Assembly: GCF_000296775.1 (NCBI RefSeq)
Contig: NZ_AJLE01000003.1
Span: 186,001 to 250,000 of the forward strand
DNA: 64,000 nt
Source of the DNA: Sulfurovum sp. AR
GTDB lineage: Bacteria; Campylobacterota; Campylobacteria; Campylobacterales; Sulfurovaceae
Direction of reading: 5' to 3'
Shown here: positions 35,179 through 40,519 of the stretch, piece after piece
Layout of the letters: every line of letters begins with the position of its first letter
Position numbering within the stretch: position 1 is the first letter of the stretch
Position numbers and translations under genes: made by a program
Notes under the pieces: generated by a model
Database searches by the model: none
Told to the model about the DNA's origin: nothing
What the model saw: the letters and a program-made list of their open reading frames with translations, nothing else

Positions 35179-37440
35179 TTACTTCAACTTCTCAGCCACT
35201 AGTTCATTGACCACTTGAGGGTTTGCTTTGCCCCCTGTGGCTTTGAGTACTTGTCCTACAAAAAAGCCTAACAATTTCGTATTTCCTGCTTTGAATTTTT
35301 CAACATTATCTGGATTTTTCACAATGACCTCATCAATGATAGGTGCAATCTGTGAAGGGTCGCTTATTTGTACAAGCCCTTTAGCTTCAACGATCTGTAC
35401 AGGGTCTTCTCCGTTCTTACTCATCTCCTCAAATACTTGTTTGGCAATTTTACTTGAAATAGTCCCATCATCGACCATCTTTACAAGCTCAGCTATCTGT
35501 TTTGCGTCAAATCTTAGTTCATCTGCCTGCTTCTCTTTAAACTCTCTGGCTACTTCATTGGCCACGATATTTGCGATAGTGACAGGACTATTGTTTATAG
35601 ATAAAGCCTCTTCATAAAATGATGAAAGTTGTTCATCTCTAGCTAAAATATCAGCAACCATACTATTGAGTTTAAGCTCACCCGTATACTTGTCAAACAG
35701 TGCCTGTTCAACTTCACTCATAGGCTCTACTTCACCATCAATTTGTACCTTTTTAGCTTGAGGTTTACGCTCATTTTTAGTTGCGCTTTCAGGTGCTTTG
35801 GTCTTCTTGCTCCAAGAGTCTTTCAGACCAACGATTTTATTGAACACCGGTGTTTCATCCGTATAGTCTATAGGATCAGCATAGAAATACCCCTGTCTTT
35901 CAAACTGGAATCGCTCATCAGGTTTGTCTGTGATGACAGCAGGCTCGATAAGCGCATTTTTGACCACTTTTAAAGAGTCTGGATTGATATCTTCCAACCC
36001 TTCAGGCGCTTCATCTTTAAAGAGTCTGTCATAGAGTCTCAGTTCAACTTTTTTAGCTTTCTCTACATCAACCCACTGAATCGCACTTTTCACCTTGATA
36101 CCACTGGTATCAGCACCACTTTTGGAATCCGGATGATACGCTGCTTTTATCTCTATGATATTGCCATCGGCATCTTTGATCACTTCTTTGCAAGTGATGA
36201 TATAGGCATGTCTAAGTCTTACCGGTTGTTCTGGTGTAAGACGGTAGTACCCTTTTGGAGGGTTTTCCATAAAGTCATCACGCTCAATATAAATCTCTCT
36301 TGAAAAAGGTATCTTTCTTGAACCCTCTTTAGGCACATCATGCGGGTAGTATGGTGCATCGAGTTCTTCTGCCCCCTCATAATTCTCAATGGTGACTTTG
36401 AGCGGGTCCAGTACACACATGACACGAGGCACTTTTGTATTGAGATCATCTCTTATACAAAACTCAAGTTGTGAGACATCTACTGTTGAGTTTGCTTTGG
36501 CTATACCTATTTGATCACAGAAGTTTAGAATAGACTCTGGTGTATACCCTCTTCTTCTATATCCCGCGATCGTAGGCATTCTAGGGTCATCCCAACCGCT
36601 CACTCTTCCTTCATTCACTAATTCTAAAAGCTTTCTCTTACTCATCACTGTATAGTTGATTGCAAGTCTTGCAAACTCATGCTGATACGGTCTTGGTGAC
36701 TTAAGCCCAAGCGTATCAAGTACCCAATCATAAATATCACGGTTGTTTTCAAACTCCAAGGTACAGATAGAGTGTGTAATCCCCTCAATATAGTCAGAGA
36801 GGCAGTGACCAAAGTCATACATCGGGTAAATATGCCATTTATCCCCTGCTCTATAATGATGTGCATGTCTGATACGATATAAAAGCGGATCTCTCATTTT
36901 CATATTGGCTGCTGCCATATCGATCTTAGCTCTAAGTACGTGTTCACCGTCTTTGAACTCACCGTTTTTCATTCTCTCCAAAAGGTCCAGGTTCTCTTCA
37001 ACAGAACGCTCGGCGTATTTACTTCGTTTTCCAGGTTCAGTGACCGTACCGCGATATTCACGGATCTCCTCTTCACTAAGACTGTCAACGTATGCCTTGC
37101 CCATTTTAATCAGTTCAACAGCATAATTGTAAAGTTCAGGGAAATAGTCAGAAGTATAACGCACACTATTATCCCATTCAAACCCAAGCCACTGTACAGC
37201 ATCTTTGAGTGCTTCAACATATTTCGTGTCTTCTGTCGTTGGATTGGTATCATCCATTCTAAGGTTACAGCGACCATGATAATCACGGGCAATACCAAAA
37301 TTTATAGCGATGGATTTGGCGTGTCCGATATGCGGGAAGCCATTGGGCTCCGGAGGAAATCTTGTATGAATCTCTTGATACTTGCCTGATGCTAAGTCCT
37401 CTTCAACTATCGTACGTAAAAAATCTTTGCTCTCACTCAT
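35179..37440 (-). CDS. glnS: Glutaminyl-tRNA synthetase with YqeY-like C-terminal domain
   Basis: A 753-residue synthetase. The class I signatures are intact: PPEPNGFPHIGHAKS (HIGH, about 29-43) and VMSKRKL (KMSKS variant, about 264-270). The beta-barrel anticodon-binding domains follow to about residue 560. Residues about 590-753 form a helical GatB/YqeY-type tail, as described for Deinococcus GlnRS. Many Campylobacterota lack GlnRS and make Gln-tRNA by GluRS2 plus GatCAB, so its presence here is informative. The neighbouring divergent gene is a GluRS2-type protein with broken motifs. Confidence 0.95.
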   Translation of the reverse strand: MSESKDFLRTIVEEDLASGKYQEIHTRFPPEPNGFPHIGHAKSIAINFGIARDYHGRCNLRMDDTNPTTEDTKYVEALKDAVQWLGFEWDNSVRYTSDYFPELYNYAVELIKMGKAYVDSLSEEEIREYRGTVTEPGKRSKYAERSVEENLDLLERMKNGEFKDGEHVLRAKIDMAAANMKMRDPLLYRIRHAHHYRAGDKWHIYPMYDFGHCLSDYIEGITHSICTLEFENNRDIYDWVLDTLGLKSPRPYQHEFARLAINYTVMSKRKLLELVNEGRVSGWDDPRMPTIAGYRRRGYTPESILNFCDQIGIAKANSTVDVSQLEFCIRDDLNTKVPRVMCVLDPLKVTIENYEGAEELDAPYYPHDVPKEGSRKIPFSREIYIERDDFMENPPKGYYRLTPEQPVRLRHAYIITCKEVIKDADGNIIEIKAAYHPDSKSGADTSGIKVKSAIQWVDVEKAKKVELRLYDRLFKDEAPEGLEDINPDSLKVVKNALIEPAVITDKPDERFQFERQGYFYADPIDYTDETPVFNKIVGLKDSWSKKTKAPESATKNERKPQAKKVQIDGEVEPMSEVEQALFDKYTGELKLNSMVADILARDEQLSSFYEEALSINNSPVTIANIVANEVAREFKEKQADELRFDAKQIAELVKMVDDGTISSKIAKQVFEEMSKNGEDPVQIVEAKGLVQISDPSQIAPIIDEVIVKNPDNVEKFKAGNTKLLGFFVGQVLKATGGKANPQVVNELVAEKLK

Positions 37441-37614: not shown

Positions 37615-37620
37615 TATAAT
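37615..37620 (+). promoter_or_regulatory. TATAAT -10 box upstream of GluRS-like gene
   Basis: A perfect TATAAT 38 bp before the ATG at 37659. The 218-bp divergent spacer to glnS holds no other gene. Confidence 0.5.
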
Positions 37621-37658: not shown

Positions 37659-38966
37659 ATGCTTAGATTTGCCCCATCACCGACCGGTGATATGTCTATA
37701 GAAGACCTTCGTATAGCACTGTTTAACTACATGGTAGCCAAACAAAAAGATGTCAACTTCATTGTACGTATCGAAGACCTTGACAAAGAACGGAACATTA
37801 CCGGCAAAGATACGGAGATCATGGATATCATTGAGAAGTTTGCACTGCCTCACGACAGCGTCTCTCACCAAAGTGAAAACCTCCATATACACCAGACACT
37901 GGCGATCAGACTCCTTGAAGAGAAAAAAGCGTTCATCTGTACCTGTACCCCTGAGCAGCTTAATGAAGAGCAAGAAGAGGCAAAACATAACAAGGTACCT
38001 TACCGCTACAGTGGTCGGTGCTCTGCTATGGGTGCGGAAGAGCTTCATAAGCTCAAAGAAGAGAAAATACCGTTTGTCGTGCGTATCAAGGCTCCGGATG
38101 CACCTATCATCACTCACGACCTGATCAAGGGGGATATCGAAACTCCAGCCGATGAAGTAGACTCTTTTGTCATTTTAAATGCTGACGGTACACCAACCTA
38201 TGACTTTGCCTGTGCCTGTGATGATATGATCTCAGGGATCAGCCTCGTCATCCGTAGTGAAGATCAACTCTCAAACACTCCTAAACAAATACATATCAAA
38301 ACGCTCCTTGGATATGAGCAGCAGGCAGACTATACACATCTGCCTATGATTCTTAATGCCGAGGGTAAGAAAATGAGTACAAATGATGATGCCGGCTCGG
38401 TCAAGTGGCTATTTGAACATGGATTCATTCCCGATGCGATCGCTAACTACCTGATACTGCTTGGCAATCAAACACCATCAGAGATCTTCACCATGCCTGA
38501 GGCATTAAAATGGTTTGACTTGAGTAGACTTTCCAAGTCACCTGTAATATTTGACATAGACACACTCCGTTCTATCAACGCAGAACACCTTAAGCAGATG
38601 GATGACAAACGTCTTTCTACACTCTTTGGCTTTGCAGATGCAGATATCGGAAAACTCGCCAAACTCTACCTTCAGGAAGTATGTACCATTAACGAACTTG
38701 AATCAAAGATCAAACCGATCTTTGCACCTAAGAATTTTGAAGGTAAATGGAGTGCCCAGATGCACACGATGGAAGATATCATCCAAAATGCTCCTATGAT
38801 CAATGACTTTAACGCATTTAAAGCACACATTCTGAAAGAGAGCGGACTGGAAGGAGAAGATTTCTTTACACCGCTGAGACTCATCCTGACGGGTGCAGAG
38901 CATGGACCTGAACTCTCCGAGATCTATCCGCTTATTAAACCATATTTACTGGAGGTAGCATCATGA
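37659..38966 (+). CDS. gltX2: GluRS2-type glutamyl-tRNA synthetase homologue with degenerate active-site motifs
   Basis: A 435-residue protein, close in length and in sequence along its whole chain to the short non-canonical GluRS2 of Helicobacter, which charges tRNA-Gln with glutamate. FAPSPTGDM, DSFVILNADGTPTYDFACA and SVKWLFEHGFIPDAIANYLI are family hallmarks. However, the HIGH motif, usually HIGN, reads SIED (residues 13-16). The KMSKS motif reads KMSTN (238-242). Aminoacylation is therefore doubtful. The frame is uninterrupted and has a promoter and an SD-like GGAG, so the gene seems maintained. It starts an operon with yggT (ATGA overlap) and the transglycosylase. Confidence 0.88.
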   Translation: MLRFAPSPTGDMSIEDLRIALFNYMVAKQKDVNFIVRIEDLDKERNITGKDTEIMDIIEKFALPHDSVSHQSENLHIHQTLAIRLLEEKKAFICTCTPEQLNEEQEEAKHNKVPYRYSGRCSAMGAEELHKLKEEKIPFVVRIKAPDAPIITHDLIKGDIETPADEVDSFVILNADGTPTYDFACACDDMISGISLVIRSEDQLSNTPKQIHIKTLLGYEQQADYTHLPMILNAEGKKMSTNDDAGSVKWLFEHGFIPDAIANYLILLGNQTPSEIFTMPEALKWFDLSRLSKSPVIFDIDTLRSINAEHLKQMDDKRLSTLFGFADADIGKLAKLYLQEVCTINELESKIKPIFAPKNFEGKWSAQMHTMEDIIQNAPMINDFNAFKAHILKESGLEGEDFFTPLRLILTGAEHGPELSEIYPLIKPYLLEVAS

Positions 38967-39238
38967 ATGCACTTATATACGCCATTGTACAAACGATCCA
39001 CACTGTACTGAACCTTTATATCTGGATAGTGATCATTGCTGCATTACTGAGTTTTGTACGACCTGATCCTTACAATCCTATCGTACAGGTACTCTACCGT
39101 CTAACTGAACCTGTCTTAAACTTCATCAGACGTAAAATGCCCTTTGTTGTATTTTCAGGTATTGATCTTTCGCCTTTGGTTGTGATCTTAGGTCTACAAC
39201 TGATCGATAACTTTATGATGCGTGCTGTACTCGGATAA
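38963..39238 (+). CDS. YggT family membrane protein
   Basis: A 91-residue protein with two membrane segments (about 5-27 and 67-88) linked by the YggT signature RPDPYNPIVQVLYRLTEPVL. YggT proteins are implicated in osmotic adaptation and in cell or thylakoid division in other bacteria; the molecular role is not settled. The ATG overlaps the stop of the GluRS-like gene (ATGA), and 3 bp separate it from the next gene, so the three are an operon. Confidence 0.88.
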   Translation: MNALIYAIVQTIHTVLNLYIWIVIIAALLSFVRPDPYNPIVQVLYRLTEPVLNFIRRKMPFVVFSGIDLSPLVVILGLQLIDNFMMRAVLG

Positions 39239-39241
39239 TCA

Positions 39242-40519
39242 ATGCACCTGAAATTTCTTTTGATTTTATTGCTGCTTGTACTCTCTATGGGTACATCCAC
39301 ACTACAGGCAAAAACGTTCACCTACGAACAGATACACAAGATGCCAAAAAGTATAGAAAAAGATTACTATATCTGGCGTTTTCTTTCACAGATCACCACC
39401 ACAGCTGCTGAAGCCAAAAAGGTCATCTATGAAGCAAGCAGGCTCAATACAAAGCTTCGAACGGCCTACAAAAATAGAACCGGGTCAACGATTGAACTTC
39501 CAAAGATAGTCGCAACCGGAGAAACAAACAAAAACTGGAGAAGAAGAAGCAATGCCCACAAAAGTTTCAAACATGGTCTTGCTTTGATGCAGCAGAGAAA
39601 ACCTAAGCAGGCAGCCGATTATTTTGAGGATGCCCGTAACAACTATCTTCAGCGCTATGACATAGACAAGTCTCTCTTCTGGCTCTATTTGAGCACAAAA
39701 GAGGATAAATATCTAGAAATGTTACGTGAAAGCTGTGATGTCAATATCTATACCTTAATGGCAGCAGATACCATCAACGGGAGATACCCTAAAACGATCA
39801 CTGAATCCCTATGGAAAAGCAGTACCTGGGGGTTTGATATCGAAGATCCGATCGATTGGGCCAAAGTGAAACAGAAGATGAATTCAGGTGTGGATCTGGA
39901 TGACCTGGCAGAGGATCATAAATCACAAGAGACAATAGGAATCTATACCTATCTCAAAGCCAAAGCATGTAACTATACGCAGTCTTACTTTCCTATGCCT
40001 TACCGCAAGGCCATGAAACATATGACTCCCGAAAGGCAAGCACTTATCTATGCTATTGCAAGACAAGAGAGTCGCTTTGTACCGGCCTCTGTCTCACGTT
40101 CCTTTGCATTGGGTATGATGCAGTTCATGCCATTTCTCATCGAACATATCTCCAAAGAGAAAGGTGAGAAGATAGATTATGATGACATATTCAATCCCTA
40201 CAAAGCCATAGAGTATGCAGACTTCCATCTTGACTATCTTACCAAGTACCTTTATCATCCTCTTTTTATTGCCTATGCGTACAATGGAGGGATAGGTTTT
40301 ACAAGAAGACATATTACCAACAAGCATAACTTTAGGAAAGGTCCTTATGAACCCTATATGAGTATGGAAAAAATGGAAAATGAGGAAGCTAAAGAGTATG
40401 GGAAAAAGGTATTGGCAAATTATGTCATCTATCTCAATAAACTGGGTGTAACCACACGTATCTTTCCCCTCTTAAAAGTGCTGGCTTCACCTTCTGAAAC
40501 CGATAAGTTCAGAAAGTAA
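39242..40519 (+). CDS. Soluble lytic murein transglycosylase (SLT domain)
   Basis: A 425-residue exported enzyme. The signal peptide ends near TSTLQAKT. A helical superhelix of about 240 residues is followed by the C-terminal SLT catalytic domain: AIARQESRFVPASVS (catalytic E), then ALGMMQFMPF and AYAYNGGIGFTRR. It cleaves glycan strands to anhydro ends in the periplasm. It is third in the operon gltX2-yggT-slt. Linking cell-wall turnover to YggT may be meaningful; the synthetase link is not obvious. Confidence 0.9.
   Translation: MHLKFLLILLLLVLSMGTSTLQAKTFTYEQIHKMPKSIEKDYYIWRFLSQITTTAAEAKKVIYEASRLNTKLRTAYKNRTGSTIELPKIVATGETNKNWRRRSNAHKSFKHGLALMQQRKPKQAADYFEDARNNYLQRYDIDKSLFWLYLSTKEDKYLEMLRESCDVNIYTLMAADTINGRYPKTITESLWKSSTWGFDIEDPIDWAKVKQKMNSGVDLDDLAEDHKSQETIGIYTYLKAKACNYTQSYFPMPYRKAMKHMTPERQALIYAIARQESRFVPASVSRSFALGMMQFMPFLIEHISKEKGEKIDYDDIFNPYKAIEYADFHLDYLTKYLYHPLFIAYAYNGGIGFTRRHITNKHNFRKGPYEPYMSMEKMENEEAKEYGKKVLANYVIYLNKLGVTTRIFPLLKVLASPSETDKFRK

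Follow-up and report, generated by a model that had tools for sequence, protein, structure and literature searches.

Recurrent loss of catalytic signatures from GluRS2 in Campylobacterales that carry GlnRS, and retention of a full-length gene in Sulfurovum sp. AR

GluRS2 of the Helicobacter pylori type, as described in the searched text of a 2014 report (PMC3927822), is a functional epsilonproteobacterial enzyme specific for tRNA-Gln. The same text places GlnRS and GluRS2 together in 6/10 epsilonproteobacteria, derives GlnRS-YqeY from Deinococcus-Thermus and treats GlnRS as possibly non-functional in these bacteria; it makes no mention of GluRS2 signature loss, and no other report of such loss was found in a literature search of partial coverage. 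It also cites the GluRS2 of Thermotoga maritima as charging neither tRNA-Glu nor tRNA-Gln, likewise a second GluRS reported to be inactive, but one that is a gene duplicate, keeps its HxGG motif and has no link to GlnRS acquisition. Precedents in kind are SLIMP, a catalytically dead SerRS paralogue of insect mitochondria retained without aminoacylation activity and said to keep tRNA binding, and HisZ, a bacterial HisRS-like protein without adenylation activity that regulates ATP phosphoribosyltransferase through a protein partner (PMC9437257). Both are class II, the former eukaryotic and the latter long diverged with a known partner, whereas the dead GluRS2 proteins considered here arise repeatedly from a working enzyme and, judging from their residues, appear to lose tRNA binding. 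GluQ-RS (YadB; PDB 1nzj, 4a91) has the GluRS catalytic fold and a zinc knuckle, but is an active enzyme and lacks an anticodon domain.

The window analysed is a 64,000-nt stretch of the Sulfurovum sp. AR genome (NZ_AJLE01000003.1). Its gltX2′ gene (37659-38966, + strand) encodes a full-length GluRS2-type protein of 435 aa with an apparently dead active site; the length given in the initial annotation is confirmed by a full-length profile match to TIGR00464 (gltX_bact; 383 bits, cut-off 290). This match, together with the gltX2-yggT-slt order of active-type orthologues, identifies the gene as GluRS2 by descent, while a score of 176.8 bits against the TIGR03838 cut-off of 276.7 places it far below GluQ-RS. 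The class I signatures of a competent GluRS (HxGN and KMSKR) are both lost, replaced, as originally reported, by SIED for HIGN (codons 13-16; 37695-37706, +) and by KMSTN for KMSKR (codons 238-242; 38370-38384, +). Relatives without GlnRS are near-invariant at 103 positions, of which 13 differ in gltX2′, almost all within active-site motifs: eleven are active-site changes (H13S, G15E, N16D, T41L, R174N, N182D, G200S, H203Q, K241T, R242N and S246G), and the other two are L58I and K400E. Loss extends beyond the two signatures first reported and, judged from these residues, the product would be a pseudo-synthetase from which no tRNA charging is expected. Sequencing error was rejected as an explanation, given eleven active-site changes in an open, conserved gene and parallel losses in independent genomes. 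In the anticodon-binding domain, GEDFF (codons 399-403; 38853-38867, +) stands for the LKGKxFF patch, with K400 replaced by E, a charge reversal shared by most relatives that carry GlnRS. The acceptor-arm domain has a putative CxC...YxxxC zinc knuckle (codons 94-121; 37938-38021, +), a feature also of YadB. The protein is thus of the same orthologous family, length and predicted fold as functional H. pylori-type GluRS2, but has lost HIGH, KMSKS, the RGEDH motif and the anticodon patch.

The divergent neighbour, glnS (35179-37440, − strand), encodes a GlnRS with a C-terminal YqeY domain and both signatures intact (GFPHIGH and TVMSKR), as the initial annotation had it. Downstream, gltX2′ overlaps the membrane protein gene yggT (38963-39238, +) by 4 nt (ATGA), and a GGAGG motif within the last gltX2′ codons (38951-38955, +) provides the yggT Shine-Dalgarno sequence; slt (lytic transglycosylase; 39242-40519, +) follows as the third gene of the cluster. 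The view that gltX2′ heads an operon agrees with this arrangement and with preservation of the gltX2-yggT-slt order across Campylobacterales, including the Helicobacter loci examined. The promoter also claimed for the gene is less secure: TATAAT at 37615-37620 (+) is a possible −10 box when read by eye, but a consensus scan missed it and found no + strand promoter upstream of gltX2′. The closest gltX2 matches lie in Sulfurovum-type genomes. The same 2.13-Mb genome contains canonical gltX1 (HIGG/KLSKR) and gatB, genes whose presence had been proposed as a check, and only sub-threshold matches to AsnRS, none above the family cut-off. GatCAB would therefore still be needed for Asn-tRNA, so that its presence is uninformative about GluRS2; its retention was rejected as proof of a working GluRS2, gatB being near-universal among the genomes compared. 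One genome (G094, that of L119), 99% complete, has GlnRS and a dead gltX2 with no GatB found, which, if real, would leave Asn-tRNA formation unexplained. In about 30 genomes no more than about 220 nt separate glnS from gltX2, in divergent as well as tandem arrangements, an adjacency far commoner than expected from random insertion.

In the Campylobacterales, a large and mainly marine bacterial group, 178 gltX2 genes were scored for both signatures and for the GlnRS status of the genome (with a few genomes contributing two entries, and GlnRS-minus calls resting partly on drafts). Both signatures are kept in 77/79 genes from genomes without GlnRS vs 9/99 from genomes with it, at least one being lost in the other 90/99 (Fisher p=3e-37; this and the other Fisher and Mann-Whitney values are uncorrected for kinship). 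Quick maximum-likelihood trees with catalytic columns masked require about 28 state changes, and among 20 independent contrasts about 15 run in the expected direction and 0 in the opposite one (p=6e-5). The two losses in genomes without GlnRS (L192 in G117 and L066 in G322) are both in drafts; a degenerate gltX2 with no GlnRS found probably reflects an assembly gap there, and these are otherwise exceptions. An apparent counterexample with 'GlnRS' and an intact gltX2 (G267) was dismissed and counted as GlnRS-minus, the GlnRS contig being a probable ciliate contaminant: the GlnRS frame (L216; G267:C171:6500-10500) is open only if TAA and TAG are read as Gln (15 such codons, no TGA). The genome of L055 has an intact gltX2 and a GlnRS broken by TAG into two pieces (G314:C77:18199-20422); this may represent either the opposite outcome or a fault of assembly.

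These data strongly support the proposal that gain of GlnRS released GluRS2, which lost its activity yet survived; the accompanying suggestion of a role in binding tRNA-Gln fared less well (see below). Normal motifs in orthologues from relatives had been put forward as a sign of sequencing error or recent decay, and the nearest orthologues of the window gene (77, 75 and 74% identical) do have HIGN or HIGD and a normal KMSKR, intact in L035 and L006 alongside GlnRS. Loss in the window's own lineage is thus recent, and the idea stands because loss occurred in parallel in many lineages and dead genes were under selection afterwards. HIGH and MSKR are intact in all GlnRS N-termini examined; with GlnRS keeping its signatures and GluRS2 having lost its own, the sequences argue against GlnRS as the non-functional partner, the possibility raised in the searched text of PMC3927822. 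Transfer of glnS together with a dead gltX2 is disfavoured, as GlnRS is 83-86% identical across families and gltX2′ only 42-51% identical to that of the window.

Conservation in dead homologues drops from 1.00 at both H13 and G15 to 0.32 and 0.24, respectively, and 62-76% of these sequences have gaps in the KMSKR columns. C94, C96, C121, D188, D189, G255, Y264, L303, N307, T343 and Y423 stay at 0.94-1.00, with the putative zinc-knuckle ligands kept at about 94-95% and the Tyr at 81%. Much of the conserved set is hydrophobic core, and invariant basic residues are retained at a median of 0.55 vs 0.89 for hydrophobic ones. The LKGKxFF patch is usually the first to change, being altered in 9/10 GlnRS genomes with nearly intact catalytic motifs vs 5/79 lacking GlnRS (p=3e-8, with no kinship correction). 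E or D has replaced K400 in 45/56 dead clusters; the tree implies about 26 acid/basic changes at this site, and G399 and F403 are lost too. From its place in the domain, this patch probably touches tRNA. Loss of K388 and of most invariant basic residues along with G399, K400 and F403 departs from the retained tRNA contacts expected of a SLIMP-like binder, insofar as domain position indicates a contact role. Median net charge moves from −5.5 to −10.5 to −15 (−25 in the window protein), and acceptor hairpin columns about 148-164 are missing in the shortened forms examined.

Simple NG86 estimates of omega are 0.11-0.36 in sister pairs sharing signature loss, mostly deletion of the KMSKS loop (bootstrap upper bounds ≤ about 0.51), compared with 0.05-0.12 in intact pairs; the dN/dS comparison suggested at the outset thus indicates purifying selection after active-site loss, the combination that marks a pseudo-synthetase. 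The window gltX2′ has a pairwise omega of about 0.1, which includes time before its loss. Neutral evolution would be expected to have left 11-31 stops in each of seven dead pairs, but the ORFs are open; indels in gltX2 stay in frame, and no stop-riddled remnant was seen among the homologues examined. AlphaFold models of the window protein (pLDDT 95) and of a 395-aa homologue whose KMSKS loop is missing (pLDDT 93) both have GluRS structures as best matches, so that a GluRS-like fold is predicted to survive signature loss; as homologues are present in the alignments, the models indicate fold compatibility, not proof. A simple pseudogene is rejected by omega, the lack of stops and the predicted fold.

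Dead gltX2 ends as an open frame, a C-terminal truncation or a clean absence. The C-terminal domain is lost in two lineages (278-313 aa), with truncated forms in G150, G283 and G037. At least 12 GlnRS genomes have yggT-slt with no detectable gltX2, and a retained role is consequently not universal, being dispensable in some settings; yggT keeps its own Shine-Dalgarno sequence in 12 genomes with clean gltX2 loss. Loci of family f20 (L155-L162, L072, L147 and others) have a tandem glnS-gltX2′-yggT-slt arrangement and form an erosion series in which gltX2′ shortens from 432 to 395, 380 and 278 aa and is absent in L167.

The explanation that we favour, at somewhat better than even probability, is that GlnRS takes over charging and GluRS2 sheds tRNA binding and catalysis, to be kept as a scaffold for a second role. 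GluRS2 in Campylobacterales would normally charge tRNA-Gln with Glu for GatCAB, and gain of GlnRS-YqeY would make this charging redundant and possibly harmful. Since GluRS2 would compete for tRNA-Gln once GlnRS charges it, tRNA recognition is proposed to be lost first, by change of the anticodon contact (LKGKxFF, K400 to E or D), and catalysis next, through loss of KMSKS, HIGH and the loops at the acceptor end. What remains of the GluRS fold, the putative zinc knuckle included, would stay under purifying selection for a non-aminoacylating and probably protein-binding role beyond the reach of GlnRS; because independent lineages keep the scaffold, this role is proposed to pre-date GlnRS. Foldability alone could, however, explain a conserved hydrophobic core, and the recency of loss in the window's lineage also weighs against a scaffold role.

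The main rival is coupling to downstream yggT, according to which the chief reason for keeping gltX2′ is that translating it opens the yggT start, the protein needing only to be foldable and soluble. It accounts for the open frame, in-frame indels and conserved tail: the yggT start lies −10 to +8 nt from the gltX2 stop in most genomes, with the ATGA overlap and GGAG(G) embedded in the last gltX2 codons, and the tail with AAGGAGAT is kept even after deletion of the anticodon domain. A foldability constraint on such a translated leader is possible. However, omega is 0.11-0.2 over the entire gene, including parts remote from the junction, putative zinc ligands and particular polar residues are kept at 0.9 or more, and the 12 genomes that lost gltX2 cleanly have yggT with its own Shine-Dalgarno sequence, and we regard coupling as an unlikely, if serious, account of retention. 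Less probable still is a dead enzyme that continues to bind tRNA-Gln and serves as its chaperone or regulates GlnRS. The adjacency of glnS in many genomes, the usual presence of the anticodon domain and the kept knuckle of the acceptor arm would fit such a binder, but the reversal at K400 and the drop in net charge make retention for tRNA-Gln binding unlikely, and the loss of G399, F403 and many basic residues, the missing acceptor hairpin of shortened forms and the absence of an anticodon domain in G150, G283 and G037 point the same way; a tRNA-Gln chaperone is disfavoured on the same charge and basic-residue evidence.

A neutral relic, redundant and with too little time to vanish, would agree with the intact motifs of the nearest relatives and with deletion of the gene in some lineages, but is already contradicted for older lineages by open ORFs and omega well below 1, and decay falls mostly on catalytic residues and presumed RNA contacts; we consider it very improbable. 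Residual or altered catalysis, for example on a novel substrate, is given the least credence. Parts of the KMSKS loop and amino-acid pocket are still kept in some lineages, the window's included, which would suit this explanation, but the His and Gly of HIGH, the Lys of KMSKS, Y181, N182 and residues of RGEDH have disappeared jointly, usually with deletion of the KMSKS loop.

Retention of a scaffold for a second role thus remains the preferred reading, and the Campylobacterales provide a repeated natural experiment in which horizontal transfer makes an enzyme redundant, catalysis and RNA contacts decay and most lineages keep the scaffold, with order-of-loss data on the route from synthetase to pseudoenzyme. 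'Glutamate-tRNA ligase' labels assigned from family score alone mislead in many Campylobacterota genomes, and the window gene would receive one. The pattern suggests a housekeeping synthetase with an unrecognised second function. More tentatively, and at rather less than even probability, GluRS2 throughout the Campylobacterota, Helicobacter and Campylobacter included, may share a second function that is conserved and requires neither charging nor binding of tRNA; if so, this function would be visible only where GlnRS took over charging and the enzyme was repeatedly stripped to its scaffold.
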